Below are positions 2,401 to 7,508 of a stretch of DNA of 45,922 nucleotides, piece after piece. Below the pieces are notes generated by a model, which saw only the letters and a list, made by a program, of their open reading frames with translations, did not search any database and was not told the origin of the DNA. The stretch is taken from positions 1 to 45,922 of the forward strand of contig JAPLKA010000015.1 of NCBI GenBank assembly GCA_026388315.1, given 5' to 3'. A program made the position numbers and the translations under genes. The first letter of the stretch is position 1. Every line of letters starts with the position of its first letter. The DNA is from Pseudomonadota bacterium (GTDB lineage Bacteria > Desulfobacterota > Syntrophorhabdia > Syntrophorhabdales > Syntrophorhabdaceae).

Positions 2401-3012
2401 TTATTTGCCGTGGAGAATATCCATCCAGCGTATCGCTTCATGCTCACTTACCTTGCCCAGGTAGATCTGTGTTGTCTTCAAGTCCTGATGGCGGAGTATC
2501 ACCTTTGACACGATTTCTAACGGTACTCCATTACGGCTTGCATAGGTTGCCGAGTATCTTCTGAGGTCGTGTGGAGATAGGGTAATCTGTAATTTACTTC
2601 CCAGCTTTTTGATGAATGTCCTTGCAGTTGAGTAGCAGATGGAAAATACACGGGTATCAGGGGACAGCCCTTTATGGGTTATATATTCGCTGAGACGCTT
2701 TGCCACCTGTTCCGGCATGAAGGCTACCTCCGACTCATTCCCGGACTTCGGGGTCTTGATGGTAAGCCTTCTTTCTGAGATATCGGATGCCTTTAAGCCA
2801 AGTAATTCTCCTATCCTTAACCCGCAGCGTGCCATAAGTTCCAGCATTAACCTGTTCCTCTGGTTCTTTGTGTTGTAAATCATCTCATCGACAATTTCTT
2901 TTTCAAGGATTGTCTTCGGTGTCTGCCTCGGCATCCTGAATGTCTTGAAAAGCAGAGGGGCATTGCATGGGTTCTTGAGATCTGGCAGACATTTTTCGAT
3001 GATGAAATTGAA
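2401..3012 (-). pseudogene. C-terminal part of a tyrosine recombinase split by the RIT element
   Basis: This piece encodes the catalytic domain of a XerD-like integrase: ARCGLRIGELLGL (first Arg), HDLRRYSATYA (H-x-x-R), LRHQDLKTTQIYLGK (His and the nucleophile Tyr). All catalytic residues are intact, but the N-terminal DNA-binding half lies 3.4 kb away at 6374-6604. Joining 6604-6374 to 3009-2401 gives 77 plus 202 codons and a stop in one continuous frame, reading KAFF then NFIIEKC, so the parent was about 279 residues. The frame can be extended into the RIT inverted repeat, but those residues are element-derived. Confidence 0.85.
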
Positions 3013-3013
3013 A

Positions 3014-3042
3014 AATAATGCAGACACTATTGTTATGCGGAG
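3014..3042 (+). repeat. RIT left terminal inverted repeat (29 bp)
   Basis: Starts AATAATGCAGACAC and ends TTGTTATGCGGAG. It is an exact reverse complement of 6321-6349. It contains TTATGCGG, a motif repeated at the other end and therefore a likely recombinase-binding unit. Confidence 0.9.
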
Positions 3043-3070
3043 CCCGCTGCTCGCGAGCCCCGCTAATACG

Positions 3071-4090
3071 TTATTCCGACCTCTTTTTACTCCGTGTAAA
3101 AGTGCCGGCCTGCAGTGAGGCAATCAGTTCATCGGTTGCCTTGAAGCGTCCGGATCGCAGTTTCGGGGCGACGATGGACTCTAACGTCTCGAGTTTGACC
3201 GAAGGATCGGCACGCGTGTACATTTCGGTTGTTTGCATACTCGCGTGGCCGAGCCAGAGCGAGACTTTTCTCAGATCGTTCGTGGCCTGCAGCACCGTGA
3301 GAGCGCAGGTGTGCCTCAGTACGTGGGGCGAAATCCGCTTTGTAGCAAGAGAAGGGCAGCGTTTCGCGGCAGTGCGAGCGTGTTTGTCCAGAATGTATTC
3401 GAAGCCGGATCGGGTCATCGGCTGGCCCCTTGCATTGAGAAAGAGTTCGGGCAGCAAAGCCGCACCCCTCACGGCCAACCACGCCTTAAGCGCTGCTGCC
3501 GTTTCTTTCCACAAGGGGAGGCACCGCTCTTTCCGCCCCTTGCCGTGAACACGCATACTCGCCTGCCCGTGAAGGGTCAGCTGATCCATGCGCAGCTCGA
3601 CGAGTTCGGAGACACGCAATCCTCCGGCAAAGCAGAGGTATAGCATGGCGCGGTCCCGGATGCCGTCCCGCGTGGTTGGTTCGGGAGCATCAAGGAGGGC
3701 CTTGATCTCCTCGACAGTAAGATGCCGGACAAGGCGGGTATCGGCTCTCTTGGCCGGAATCGCGAGAATGCGCCGTATCTGCTCTAATGCCTCCGGCACA
3801 CGGTATTCCAAGAAGTGCATGAACGACTTGATGGCAGCGAGCCGGCTATTCCTGGAACCCGGTCCATTGCCCCGCTCCGTTTCCAAGTAATCGAGGAACG
3901 CCGTCACGAGCCGTGCATCGAGCTGCTCGAGACAGAGTGCCGACGGGGGAATCTTGAACCTTTTACTCGCATAGACAAAAAGGAGTTTGAAAGCGTACGC
4001 ATAGGACGCACAGGTGTTGTCGCTCGCGGCCCGCTCCAAGGGCAAGCGTTCCCTGAGGTACGCGGTGATGTGCGGTGCGATCAGGGTCAT
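3071..4090 (-). CDS. ritC: RIT tyrosine recombinase, third gene (RitC)
   Basis: A 339-residue phage-integrase-family recombinase. The N-terminal core-binding domain spans about 1-105 and the catalytic domain about 115-310. Catalytic residues are visible: FAGGLRVSELVELR (Arg), GKGRKERCLPL (Lys in the beta turn), HVLRHTCA (H-x-x-R), LWLGHASMQTTEMYTRA (His and Tyr). The ATG overlaps the ritB stop as ATGA and has GGGAGGG six bases upstream, so translation is coupled. The C-terminus carries a basic tail (KLRSGRFKA, RSKKRSE). It is expected to act with RitA and RitB on the element ends; the division of labour is not known from sequence. Confidence 0.87.
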   Translation of the reverse strand: MTLIAPHITAYLRERLPLERAASDNTCASYAYAFKLLFVYASKRFKIPPSALCLEQLDARLVTAFLDYLETERGNGPGSRNSRLAAIKSFMHFLEYRVPEALEQIRRILAIPAKRADTRLVRHLTVEEIKALLDAPEPTTRDGIRDRAMLYLCFAGGLRVSELVELRMDQLTLHGQASMRVHGKGRKERCLPLWKETAAALKAWLAVRGAALLPELFLNARGQPMTRSGFEYILDKHARTAAKRCPSLATKRISPHVLRHTCALTVLQATNDLRKVSLWLGHASMQTTEMYTRADPSVKLETLESIVAPKLRSGRFKATDELIASLQAGTFTRSKKRSE

Positions 4091-4983
4091 GGTTGCCCTC
4101 CCGTGACGAAGGACTCAACACGCCGAGCGATACCTTCCATGAGCTCCGGCGTTGCTTCCAGATACCAGTAGGTATAAGAGACGCAGCTGTGGCCGAGGTA
4201 GGTCGAGAGTGCCACCATATGCTCCGCAATGCGGTCGCGACCATCAGGCGAGGTCTCCAGCGCCCTGACTGCAAAGGTGTGACGCAGTGAGTGCGGCGTG
4301 GGGCGAGGCCTCCGCTGTAGGCCGATTCTGTCCGCGGCTGACCTGAACACTTTCTCGACATCACCAATGAGCAGCGGCTTTCCTCGCAGCGACACGAACA
4401 CGTGGTCATCGAAGGGGGCGTGGGGAAGGCGGTATTCAAGATACCGCTCCAGTCCGGCACGAGCGGTTTGGTGCAAGGGCACGAGGCGACTCTTCCGGAA
4501 CTTGGAGTTCCAGATGAGCATGCCGTCGGGAGTGACATCCTCGAGGCGCAGGCGGATGGCTTCAGACACGCGCAGTCCCGTGCAGGCGAGCAAGGCGAAG
4601 AGCGTGCGGTAGGTCTGCCGCCGGAAAGGATGACTGGACTCGGCCGCCGCCTGGAGGAGCCGGACGATATCGAACGGAGAAAATATGTAGGGCCTGGACC
4701 TCGTGTAATGCTCGCTGCCAAAGACCGCCGGCGGTACCTGATGGGATGGATCCTCGGTATGAACATACCGGGCAAAACGAATCACGTGGCTGAGACGGCG
4801 TGCACGCTGGTGTACGGAGCGCGCCAATCCCGCCCACGCGATCGCGGTTTGCGAGCACACACAGTGTTTTCCTCTCGCCTCGGAGAAAACTGCAAAACTG
4901 CGTAAGAGGTTGCCTTGGGACTTGAGATCGAATCCGCACGCATTGCGTAGGGAGAGATATGACTCCACAGCATGGGTTAACAT
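4087..4983 (-). CDS. ritB: RIT tyrosine recombinase, second gene (RitB)
   Basis: A 298-residue tyrosine recombinase. Motifs: ACTGLRVSEAIRLRLED (Arg), NSKFRKSRLVPL (Lys), HSLRHTFAVRAL (H-x-x-R), TYLGHSCVSYTYWYLEA (His and candidate Tyr). The chosen ATG at 4983 has GGAGGTG six bases upstream and overlaps the ritA stop by 7 bp. An upstream in-frame start at 5001 would add six residues but lacks a ribosome site. It overlaps ritC by 4 bp. The spacing from the His to the Tyr is slightly longer than in RitA and RitC, because of the YTYWYLEA segment. Confidence 0.86.
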   Translation of the reverse strand: MLTHAVESYLSLRNACGFDLKSQGNLLRSFAVFSEARGKHCVCSQTAIAWAGLARSVHQRARRLSHVIRFARYVHTEDPSHQVPPAVFGSEHYTRSRPYIFSPFDIVRLLQAAAESSHPFRRQTYRTLFALLACTGLRVSEAIRLRLEDVTPDGMLIWNSKFRKSRLVPLHQTARAGLERYLEYRLPHAPFDDHVFVSLRGKPLLIGDVEKVFRSAADRIGLQRRPRPTPHSLRHTFAVRALETSPDGRDRIAEHMVALSTYLGHSCVSYTYWYLEATPELMEGIARRVESFVTGGQP

Positions 4984-6200
4984 GGTTGCACCTCCGGCCA
5001 CGCTTGAGCGATCCGTTTAAGGGCGGTTACATCTACTTTGGCGTAGATCTCTGTCGCCACGATGGAGCGGTGCCGGAGAACGTTCGCAATGTCCTGAAGT
5101 GACGCTCCATGCCGGAGCATGGCAGTTGCCGCAGAATGGCGGAGCACATGAGCCGCACCGCCCGAACAAGAGACTCCTGCCCTGTACATCGCCCGAGTAA
5201 CAATAGTCGAGACGGCAGCGGAGGACGCGAAGGGGTGAAAAGGTGCGCGAAGGCATGGGAACATCACATCGGTGTTGGCTTTAGGACGGCTTGTTTTCAG
5301 ATAATTCACGATTGCATCGCCAACCTCCTGGGTCAGCGGCAGTTGCGTCTCGCGGCCACCCTTTCCGGACACCCGTACGGCAGCTTCTTTCCAGTCGATA
5401 TCGGCCAGACGAAGGTGAACGATATCTCCCGCCCGAAGTCCCAGACGGGCGAGGAGAAGCAGAATCGCGCGATCCCGCCTGCCAACGGGCGTAGACCGGT
5501 CACAGGAATATATGATCCGTTCCACGTCTTCCGGCGGGAGGTACCGCGGAAGAGAAGAAAGGCGCCAATGGGCCAGGGTGGGAATGGCTGCTTCAAGGCT
5601 GGCGGCACATTTTCCTTCAGAGATGAGAAAGCGAAGGAACATGCGAAGAGCCGTTGTGTGCTTCTTTGTTCTCGCCCATCCCGATTGCTGGCTTGTCTCG
5701 AGGACAAACTGTCGCAGCCCCTGTGCATCAAACCTGCTCGGATCTTCTCCGAGACGTTTCAGCAACGCCCGAATGCAGGAGCCGTAATGGTACAGGGTAT
5801 CGTCACAGCTTCCCCGCTGTTGCCTCATCCACCGCAGGAAAGCGACGAGCAGAGGAGGAGCCTGATTTGGTTCAATGGAGGTGGAACCCGTGCTGCGCAG
5901 ATAGTTTAAAAACAATCGCGCGCCTGCGAACAAGTCCGATTGGAGGGTAGGACCAAAACCCACACATCGGCAACGGTGCTGACCGAAACGCTTAAGAAGA
6001 TCTTCAGTAAAATCAGAGACCGGTACCCTTTTGCAGTCCATCCAATGAAGCAGATGCTTCGCCGCCCTGAAGCGCCTTCGGATGGTTACTTCGCCATAAC
6101 CCGCTTGGCAGAGCTCTCTGGCAAACCCTTCAAGCAACGAACCGTGCGGTCCTTCCCGGAGCACTTGCATTCGTTGGCTCTTAAAAAAATGTTCCAGCAT
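4977..6200 (-). CDS. ritA: RIT tyrosine recombinase, first gene (RitA)
   Basis: A 407-residue recombinase, the longest of the trio as usual for RIT elements. It has an N-terminal extension (about 1-110), a SAM-like core-binding domain (about 115-205) and a catalytic domain (about 215-400). Catalytic residues: ARLGLRAGDIVHLR (Arg), GKGGRETQLPL (Lys), HVLRHSAATAML (H-x-x-R), VLRHRSIVATEIYAKVD (His and Tyr). The start has AGGAGG seven bases upstream. It is the promoter-proximal gene; about 120 bp between the start and the right repeat contain repeated TATGCGGTGT and AACCCTCT motifs that could bind the recombinases and regulate expression. Confidence 0.87.
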   Translation of the reverse strand: MLEHFFKSQRMQVLREGPHGSLLEGFARELCQAGYGEVTIRRRFRAAKHLLHWMDCKRVPVSDFTEDLLKRFGQHRCRCVGFGPTLQSDLFAGARLFLNYLRSTGSTSIEPNQAPPLLVAFLRWMRQQRGSCDDTLYHYGSCIRALLKRLGEDPSRFDAQGLRQFVLETSQQSGWARTKKHTTALRMFLRFLISEGKCAASLEAAIPTLAHWRLSSLPRYLPPEDVERIIYSCDRSTPVGRRDRAILLLLARLGLRAGDIVHLRLADIDWKEAAVRVSGKGGRETQLPLTQEVGDAIVNYLKTSRPKANTDVMFPCLRAPFHPFASSAAVSTIVTRAMYRAGVSCSGGAAHVLRHSAATAMLRHGASLQDIANVLRHRSIVATEIYAKVDVTALKRIAQAWPEVQPC

Positions 6201-6320
6201 GACGTGCCCTCCTTTAATGGTAGATTGAGAGAAATGTCATTATTATGCGGTGTAAACGACCCCGCACGGCAACTTTAACCCTCTGAACCTATTGTACTAT
6301 GCGGTGTCCTATAACCCTCT
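6201..6320. promoter_or_regulatory. RIT right-end internal repeats upstream of ritA
   Basis: Between the ritA start and the right repeat, TATGCGGTGT occurs at about 6244 and 6298 and TAACCCTCT at about 6278 and 6312. With the repeats themselves this gives several GCATAA/TTATGC units near this end. They are likely recombinase-binding sites that may also autoregulate ritABC. No clear -35/-10 pair was found. Confidence 0.4.
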
Positions 6321-6349
6321 CTCCGCATAACAATAGTGTCTGCATTATT
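6321..6349 (-). repeat. RIT right terminal inverted repeat (29 bp)
   Basis: Exact reverse complement of 3014-3042. It directly abuts a 32-bp palindromic site (6348-6379) that is not present at the left end. Confidence 0.9.
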
Positions 6350-6379
6350 CTTCTTATGCAGTTCAGCGCATAAGAAGAA
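6348..6379. repeat. Palindromic recombinase-type site at the RIT/host junction
   Basis: TTCTTCTTATGC, an 8-bp spacer, then GCATAAGAAGAA: two perfect 12-bp inverted arms. Arm and spacer sizes are those of tyrosine-recombinase core sites. The outer TTCTTC belongs to the host gene and the remainder to the element, so the site spans the junction. Confidence 0.6.
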
Positions 6380-6604
6380 CGCCTTCAGTTGGGCATACCT
6401 TAATCTTCTGGTGGATTTTGATAATGTTTTTGTCATCTGTTCCAGGAAGTGATAGATCTCGTCCGGTTTTATAGAATCGAGATCACGATCAGAGAAAACA
6501 GAGTCGAAATGCTGTAATAAAAACCTGTAGCTGTCCACAGTCCTTTTTCTATGGTTTGACTGCTGGTAAAACCTGAATAATGATATTGCCTCTTTTACGT
6601 TCAT
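6374..6604 (-). pseudogene. N-terminal part of the split tyrosine recombinase
   Basis: Encodes the core-binding (SAM-like) domain of the host integrase: MNVKEAISLFRFYQQ, then IKPDEIYHFLEQMTKTLSKSTRRLRYAQLKAFF, where the element begins. Its frame runs on through the RIT end to a stop at 6275, giving about 32 meaningless residues. The start has GAGGTAG upstream. Together with 2401-3012 it makes a full-length XerD-like protein. As it stands the gene is broken. Confidence 0.8.
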
Positions 6605-6748: not shown

Positions 6749-7066
6749 ATGGCGGAAAAGAGAAAACCAACCTATGATCTTCAAGCATTCAAGGCTGTGT
6801 TTTCAACAGTGCAAAAACTCGCTGTTACAGGCTCGGCGTTAAGAAGTGCTTCTGCTCTCGGGTTTGGACGTTCAGAGATTGTTGAAACAATAAAGACCAT
6901 GCAGCGTGAGCACTTCTATAAATCAATGACGTCATATGCCGACAGCCAACTATGGCAGGATGTATACCATGTTCCCTCGTCCGTTGGTCTTTTATACGTC
7001 AAATTCACCGCCGACGTTTTGACTGAGTTTTTACTTTTATCCTTTAAGGAGAAGAACGATGAATAA
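6749..7066 (+). CDS. mqsR: MqsR-family toxin, mRNA interferase
   Basis: A 105-residue RelE-fold toxin. It aligns with E. coli MqsR from the first residues (MAEKRKPTYDLQAFK) through HFYKSMTSYADSQLWQDVYHV and the C-terminal VLTEFLLLSFKEK. Known family members cleave mRNA at GCU sites. The toxin precedes its antitoxin and overlaps it by 8 bp, the usual mqsRA order. No Shine-Dalgarno is visible; the promoter predicts a leaderless transcript starting at this ATG, which would keep toxin synthesis low. No alternative start fits the family. Confidence 0.88.
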   Translation: MAEKRKPTYDLQAFKAVFSTVQKLAVTGSALRSASALGFGRSEIVETIKTMQREHFYKSMTSYADSQLWQDVYHVPSSVGLLYVKFTADVLTEFLLLSFKEKNDE

Positions 7067-7508
7067 TCCTGTTTGTCCAAAAACCGGTGCACCGATGCAC
7101 CGGGGCACACGCACCATGACTCTCACCTATAAAGATGAAAGCATTACATTTGACATGCCCGGGTGGTATTGCGATACATCAGATGAGAGTATCCATACGG
7201 GACAGGATATGAAAGTCTCTGATCGAATACTTAACAGTCTTAAGGCACGTGTTGAGGGTTTGCTTGAACCCGAGGAAATACGCCGCATCCGAAAAAAACT
7301 TGCCATAAATCAGACAGAAGCTGGACATATGATCGGCGGCGGTCCTCGTGCTTTTCAAAAATATGAATCCGGAGATTTGCTGCCAAGTCGAGCAATCAGC
7401 AGCGCCCTCGTGCTCCTTGATCATAATCCCGAGGGTTTAACGGTTCTTCAAAAACGGCAGATCAGAACAACTTATCGTGGAAGAAAGAATTGGCCGCTGG
7501 AACGTTAA
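7059..7508 (+). CDS. mqsA: MqsA-family antitoxin and autorepressor
   Basis: A 149-residue two-domain antitoxin. The N-terminal toxin-binding domain (about 1-65) includes CPKTGAPMHRGT and GWYCDTSDESI. The C-terminal Xre/HTH domain (about 70-135) includes LAINQTEAGHMIGGGPRAFQKYESG, close to the E. coli MqsA recognition helix. Two of the four zinc cysteines of E. coli MqsA are replaced (Thr in the first pair, Ser in the second), so the N-domain may fold without zinc. A tail (RTTYRGRKNWPLER) extends past the usual end. The ribosome site AAGGAGAAGAACG lies inside mqsR, so translation should exceed that of the toxin. Confidence 0.88.
   Translation: MNNPVCPKTGAPMHRGTRTMTLTYKDESITFDMPGWYCDTSDESIHTGQDMKVSDRILNSLKARVEGLLEPEEIRRIRKKLAINQTEAGHMIGGGPRAFQKYESGDLLPSRAISSALVLLDHNPEGLTVLQKRQIRTTYRGRKNWPLER

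Follow-up and report, generated by a model that had tools for sequence, protein, structure and literature searches.

The coupling sequences of Tn916 and CTnDOT are non-identical crossover bases, the element supplying one set and the target the other, and the core sites of Xer/dif have a 6-bp centre with TTATG/CATAA-like arms and serve chromosome dimer resolution, not transposition. The ends of RIT (recombinase in trio) elements described here resemble the former in combining element-derived and target-derived crossover bases, although Tn916 and CTnDOT are larger elements not known to have a palindrome-borne second core, and resemble the latter in their 6-bp centre and arms, while differing in function. 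The stretch analyzed (the window, meaning its full 45,922 nucleotides) comes from a Pseudomonadota bacterium placed by GTDB in the Syntrophorhabdaceae (assembly GCA_026388315.1, contig JAPLKA010000015.1, positions 1 to 45,922) and holds a complete RIT element, with a net inserted length of 3,364 bp, within a tyrosine recombinase gene. Comparing this element with its relatives, we propose, with a probability of about 0.72, that the inner, complete core of an RIT enters the target first and that joining of the outer cores follows, an old outer hexamer becoming the new inner one.

RIT elements have been characterized by three adjacent tyrosine recombinase genes with overlaps of 4-8 bp and putative R/H/Y residues, a length of ~3.5 kb, and a 28-9 bp inverted repeat with an overlapping palindrome, and the need for three recombinases was called difficult to understand (Van Houdt et al., 2012; PMC3414803). 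The window element is like these RITs in its overlapping recombinase trio, its length, its repeat and palindrome, and its mobile-element target; the portions of that paper available to us describe neither the hexamers nor the exchange rule nor the alternation between cores reported below. SE elements and Tn554 share with RITs the use of tyrosine recombinases and a 6-bp donor-flank sequence that is carried to the new site, but they differ in their genes (IntA, Tfp, IntB, and Srap in SEs; TnpA, TnpB, and TnpC in Tn554), and the 6 bp that SEs carry along are placed at a fixed end, with no inner second core described in the accessible part of the source (PMC10214605). A table in the same 2023 paper lists RIT target specificity, empty site, and movement as not tested. 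The RIT literature searched, through excerpts, gave no account of RIT movement or of the exchange rule; an earlier description is possible (Ricker 2013 and Nielsen 2017 lay outside the search). To our reading, hexamer exchange is a new, directly testable rule for RIT movement.

Read along the minus strand from the host start codon, the window locus consists of 77 host codons ending in TTCTTC, the palindrome TTATGCGCTGAACTGCATAA, GAAGAA, the repeat TAATGCAGACACTATTGTTATGCGGAG, ritA, ritB, ritC, the same repeat in inverted form, TTTTTC, and 202 host codons:

6374..6604, minus strand: 5' fragment of the split host tyrosine recombinase, 77 codons, SAM-like core-binding (Phage_int_SAM_1, E 9e-7; homology to uninterrupted genes)
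6374..6379, minus strand: outer hexamer h1, TTCTTC (a single TTYTTY at eight uninterrupted homologous places)
6354..6373, minus strand: 20-bp palindrome P, TTATGC-GCTGAACT-GCATAA, at the ritA end (same layout at 94 other RIT ends)
6348..6353, minus strand: inner hexamer h2, GAAGAA, the reverse complement of h1
6321..6347, minus strand: ritA-end inverted repeat, 27 bp without the hexamer (27/27 match to the other repeat)
6243..6307, plus strand: two more TATGCGGTGT motifs upstream of ritA (within 6243-6253; at 6298-6307), read from the sequence and possible additional recombinase binding sites
4977..6200, minus strand: ritA, 407 aa (open reading frame; Phage_integrase and Phage_int_SAM_1)
4087..4983, minus strand: ritB, 298 aa, 7-bp overlap with ritA (open reading frame; Pfam domain)
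3071..4090, minus strand: ritC, 339 aa, 4-bp overlap with ritB (open reading frame; Pfam; 59-62% identical to five plasmid RitC)
3016..3042, minus strand: ritC-end inverted repeat, 27 bp without the hexamer
3010..3015, minus strand: outer hexamer h3, TTTTTC
2401..3009, minus strand: 3' fragment of the split host recombinase, 202 codons and stop, catalytic domain (Phage_integrase, E 8e-23; homology to uninterrupted genes)

A preliminary description, made from the sequence alone, had reported an intact RIT at 3013-6373 that splits a tyrosine recombinase gene and is bounded by perfect 29-bp inverted repeats. The repeats, the three recombinases, the in-frame host fragments, and uninterrupted homologues all bear out the intact insertion, and the perfect 29 bp form the inner part of 33-bp arms (3010-3042 and 6321-6353) with one mismatch, matching at 32/33 positions with the hexamers and 27/27 without them. 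Because TTYTTY is present at both junctions, these borders are one of several equivalent cuts, and the element is thus given a net length; the palindrome and the triple hexamer were absent from that account. One hexamer copy stands at each junction (TTCTTC, TTTTTC), and a third, inverted, lies between palindrome and repeat. The 20 bp between the host and the ritA-end repeat are part of a hairpin-forming palindrome with a 12-bp stem including the hexamers (DNA fold z -4.4; 0/200 shuffles equally good).

Comparison with relatives suggests how the element might move. Each end would carry a crossover hexamer of 6 bp, with a TWATG/CATWA-like arm next to it on the element side. Where the palindrome lies, the outer hexamer touches host DNA, while the inner hexamer appears flanked on both sides by element arms; it would be the one core that is complete in the integrated element. 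During transposition, this inner core would recombine with a hexamer in the target, and the outer cores would be joined to one another. The new copy would then carry as its outer hexamers the old inner hexamer and the target's own, and as its inner hexamer one of the old outer hexamers; its palindrome would be reverse-complemented, and its body would face the other way with respect to the target hexamer. In this way the element would alternate between two cores and retain a trace of where it sat before; for the window copy (inner TTCTTC; outers TTCTTC and TTTTTC), one outer hexamer would have come with the element and the other would be the target's. A stricter version, to which we give slightly less than even odds, makes this an obligatory two-core cycle, in which the inner core attacks the target before outer joining and every jump inverts the element and writes the former-site hexamer inside; if true, the inner hexamer is a one-step record and the order of jumps can be read. 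The same anatomy offers a possible reason for several enzymes, the arms differing at the repeat, the palindrome, and the host side.

The proposal draws on near-identical copies, in particular 13 same-genome pairs at least 99% identical (genome membership was assigned by hand). Among the seven with differing inner hexamers, six show exact two-way exchange, each inner hexamer being an outer hexamer of the other copy (L207/L208, L207/L209, L247/L248, L251/L252, L259/L260, and L261/L262, L numbers denoting loci); the seventh, L208/L209, in which both copies are partners of L207, shows neither exchange nor flip. Body orientation is reversed in 11 of the 13 pairs, the exceptions being L208/L209 and the tandem copies in L237, and where the palindrome is asymmetric (4/13), three pairs have exact reverse complements and L160/L161 does likewise but for 1/20 bases. 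Counting all pairs, two-way exchange occurs in 8/13 informative pairs at ≥99% identity versus 3/149 below 99% (Fisher p 2e-8, only a guide because pairs share members); among less similar pairs in the two best-sampled target groups, it occurs in 2/172 and 1/82.

The rule of exchange and flip was first derived from the copies in Tardibacter chloracetimidivorans JJ-A5, whose bodies are 99.8-100% identical. In target orientation, L207, on the largest contig, has outers TGCACT and TGGGTC and inner TGCCCC; the plasmid copy L208 has outers TGCCCG and TGCCCC and inner TGCACT; and the plasmid copy L209 has outers TGCCCC and TGGCCG and inner TGGGTC. L217, whose RIT is 82% identical and whose flanks are similar to the L209 site, carries TGGCCG as both of its outer hexamers; this favors TGGCCG as the target of L209 and TGCCCC, the L207 inner hexamer, as the one carried in. 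Same-genome pairs with a locus fetched after the rule was noted show exchange in 4/4 informative cases (Sphingobium sp. YBL2, L247/L248; S. xenophagum C1, L251/L252; Sphingobium sp. CAP-1, L259/L260; and the second RIT of S. xenophagum, L261/L262) and a flip in 8/9. In S. yanoikuyae SHJ (L263/L264), the body is flipped and the inner hexamers are identical, and a near-identical pair on one contig (L165) fits the rule as far as it can be read, one palindrome lying off the contig. Short-read assembly could mis-orient a body between repeats; each hexamer should lie within one read of its host flank. The L207, L208, and L209 sites also have an identical stretch in common, starting ~80 bp outside the RIT, and a second annotated set of integrase genes stands beside L208 and L209; another element may also use the ArdC gene at these sites. 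Searches for near matches to the RIT of a Salmonella plasmid in E. coli genomes, and for a plasmid match to L118, found none.

The order of parts seen in the window (hexamer, palindrome, inner hexamer, repeat, body, repeat, hexamer) recurs wherever ends were detected, with the palindrome at either end of the element. RitC relatives were taken from plasmids (351 records, only some taken), GTDB genomes (best 80 of 477, giving 79 loci), viral contigs, and family-level searches; the family-wide searches yielded RITs in 3/200, 16/297, and 12/249. The detector scores palindrome and repeats and never the hexamers, imposes a palindrome length of 20 with the form T...A, and demands T or A as the first base of the repeat. 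Repeat thresholds were 20, 19, 18, or 17 depending on the run, 17 admitting L028, L235, and L237 (18-19/27). At 19, ends were detected in 73 of the 104 loci that had both genes and enough flanking sequence; 1.6 Mb of shuffled loci gave a single detection. This detector replaced a looser first scan that gave many spurious rows, often within long inverted duplications. We dropped three rows without a RitC match, those with a palindrome start other than TTA/TAA/TTT, two rows of L207 and L213, four repeat loci, further low-scoring and repeat rows by hand, and two repeats before the final count; L063 (broken), L067, L086, and L159 (ends undetected), and L163 (gap of N) were unscorable. Six elements came from, or were seen only through, a palindrome pattern scan, and L174, L181, L185, L187, and L191 do not count toward palindrome conservation because they came from it.

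With the window included, 95 ends were recorded (some are copies of one site, and element L101 is counted twice), with the palindrome at the ritA end in 37 and the ritC end in 58. Hexamers vary between elements and resemble each other within one element: h1 and the inner hexamer agree at 376/474 bases, against a permutation mean of 151 (maximum 183), or 281 (maximum 314) when inner hexamers trade places only between elements in which their first two bases agree. By position, this agreement is 74 of 79 at position 1, 67 at 5, 66 at 2, 57 each at 3 and 6, and 55 at 4. All three hexamers are equal in 20 of the 79 non-redundant elements, h1 alone equals the inner one in 13, h3 alone does in 5, h1 equals h3 but not the inner one in 16, and all differ in 25. 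L101/L164 is one element with palindromes at both ends, and RIT-type ends lie 4.9-6.6 kb apart in L031, L066, L165, L201, L202, L263, and L264, so some elements have extra DNA between the repeats.

A number of results weigh against the proposed exchange. Apart from the eight two-way exchanges, the informative pairs at ≥99% identity comprise three from different genomes that exchange one way only (L117/L118, L211/L212, and L226/L227) and two that do not exchange (L208/L209 and L249/L252, the latter from different genomes and at the same site). Moreover, L226/L227 is unflipped, L211/L212 has a flipped body with asymmetric palindromes in the same, unreversed sense, and L249/L251, likewise from different genomes, exchanges both ways with no flip. 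One speculation is that the missing outer hexamer in L117/L118 and L211/L212 is made up partly of carried and partly of target bases (TACCGC, TACGTC). Inversions at the same site (L226/L236, L230/L231, and L249/L252) mean that an element can turn around while staying in place; if it re-entered its old site by way of the inner core, exactly the L226/L236 arrangement would result, reversed palindrome included, but not that of L249/L252. Two-way exchange is seen in 0/16 of the informative pairs with 88-99% identity, an outcome to be expected if several jumps had intervened or if the exchange rule is wrong. The 25/79 elements with three different hexamers also count here, as do the 31/104 loci with adequate flanks in which such ends went undetected, although for two of these (L253 and L254) ends appeared in wider stretches (L263 and L264). 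Finally, movement is inferred from sequence, and the direction of a jump is not readable for a given pair.

Other explanations could account for parts of this pattern. One, which we consider unlikely but still worth serious attention, is that excision comes first: the outer cores would join into a free double-stranded circle with two equivalent cores, either of which is used for integration. The same hexamer exchange would follow whenever the inner core is used, circles have been reported for SE elements (PMC10214605), and the tandem RIT pair L237, whose joint reads repeat, hexamer, one extra A, palindrome, hexamer, repeat, resembles a circle junction with one extra base. However, about half of copies should then be unflipped, whereas 11/13 same-genome pairs are flipped, leaving one sibling pair and one tandem pair; a scan for RIT circle junctions, which demanded 24/27 repeat matches and missed L237, found none in the loci covered. 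It is improbable that the window copy is a relic that no longer moves and looks clean only by accident: it is the single copy in its own genome assembly, and no RitC relative at E 1e-60 was found in 36 other genus and family members searched, but its three genes are open, its repeats match 27/27, and the host frame is free of stops. Still less probable is that flips and swaps arise from in-place inversion unrelated to jumping, by homologous recombination between the repeats or by recombinase acting on inverted cores. The same-site inversions named above exist, but inversion in place cannot move the outer hexamer of one site to the inner position elsewhere, which is seen exactly in six same-genome pairs on different replicons. 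Finally, an ordinary target-site duplication with the inner hexamer as a fixed binding site would fit the 36/79 elements with h1 = h3 and is very improbable given that h1 and h3 differ in the other 43/79 and that elements with 99.8-100% identical bodies carry different inner hexamers. A fixed, element-encoded target hexamer was likewise rejected, near-identical elements differing in hexamer.

If the exchange reading is right, jumps between replicons can be linked through the inner hexamer from sequence alone, and RITs, by inserting repeatedly at motifs conserved in genes for transposases, recombinases, and anti-restriction proteins, would naturally inactivate other mobile DNA. We translated across the joined flanks of 80 elements, 6 of which have no spanning frame. 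Insertions lie at YN^SCRNRHCPK and close variants in IS91-type transposase (L028, L070, L084, L088, L109, and L235), HE^LxHA(T/S)GH of ArdC (L207, L226-L232, and L236), (T/S)PRE^YVxxYL in a plasmid gene that encodes an AAA_34 domain and whose relatives are annotated 'strawberry notch' (L200-L202 and L210-L212), ^EHQSxPD of YhgA-like transposase (L244 and L245), TS^QLPIEHW of IstB (L035 and L040), and HD^MRHVFAT of tyrosine recombinase (L239); in the remaining elements, the longest spanning frame has no recognizable motif. HExxH and HxxR are catalytic motifs. Pfam named 17 of 30 fragments in open frames at the junction and had no match for 13; the names are IS91 zinc-binding, ArdC (twice), AAA_34 (twice), Transposase_31, IstB (twice), rve, serine recombinase, Phage_integrase, ISL3 transposase, reverse transcriptase, intron maturase, phage portal, DUF3489, and DUF6573, and for some fragments the named frame is possibly not the interrupted one. 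The question of sequence preference, raised in the preliminary description by the recombinase target, is thus answered in part: the 6-bp cores match roughly, and conserved codons of mobile-element genes are hit repeatedly. Judged from these frames, tyrosine recombinase is one RIT target among several mobile-element genes. Earlier papers, as far as they were available, describe RITs inserted in the radC gene of two species and in transposase genes of IS66 and Tn6049-like elements.

In the window, the host fragments of 77 and 202 codons join in frame, as had been proposed, into one recombinase of 279 codons free of stops. DNA homologues of the host gene occur in 9/60 genomes searched, many matches stopping short of the junction. 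Eight homologous places span it (nine alignment rows, two rows being one place), each with a single TTYTTY (TTCTTT in 3, TTCTTC in 1, TTTTTC in 4) and continuous homologous sequence on both sides; L009 and L010 are identical over the compared stretch, and for L015, the most distant, upstream homology was judged by eye only. A large deletion at the junction had been the outcome that would speak against a clean event, and the comparison with these intact genes shows, at the level of sequence, simple insertion of the RIT without loss of host sequence. Of the suggested recent, precise insertion, precision is established by the uninterrupted homologues, and recency fits the open genes and near-perfect repeats. 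TTCTTC and TTTTTC are both natural forms of the Phe-Phe codons in this gene family, so that the target hexamer of the window copy is not decidable between them. One of the eight places is a paralogue in the same genome (G000:C33; L019/L024) that has separately lost ~230 bp internally, and another fragment lies on G000:C72 (L026).

The window element is an ordinary, intact member of the known RIT family, with short gene overlaps, catalytic residues, repeat and overlapping palindrome, length, and trio homology all in keeping with the published description. That its three recombinases are catalytically complete, as first proposed, is supported by Phage_integrase domains in all (Pfam, E 8e-30, 7e-26, and 5e-33) and by R, HxxR, H, and Y residues in each translation, inspected by eye. 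RitA has been described with two core-binding domains and RitC with an extra C-terminal helix, in the part of the source available (PMC8138268); by Pfam, window RitA has a single SAM_1 match at 120-196, with 119 residues ahead of it. The accessory genes Tfp/GinC and Srap/GinD/TnpC that mark SE, GInt, and Tn554 elements are absent, the three recombinase genes filling the stretch between the repeats. G+C content is 57.5% in the element and 44% in the host gene. RitC relatives at E 1e-60 occur in 3/60 genomes, its own and two of the same order with copies 43-47% identical, and the closest RitC among the best 80 of 477 GTDB matches, at 80% identity, belongs to a 'Proteobacteria bacterium' metagenome-assembled genome. 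Because relatives are few in nearby genomes and the closest lies in that other assembly, the element was probably acquired from outside the family. An MqsR toxin and MqsA antitoxin pair (6749-7508; Pfam E 1e-28 and 3e-21) adjoins the start of the split gene on the opposite strand.

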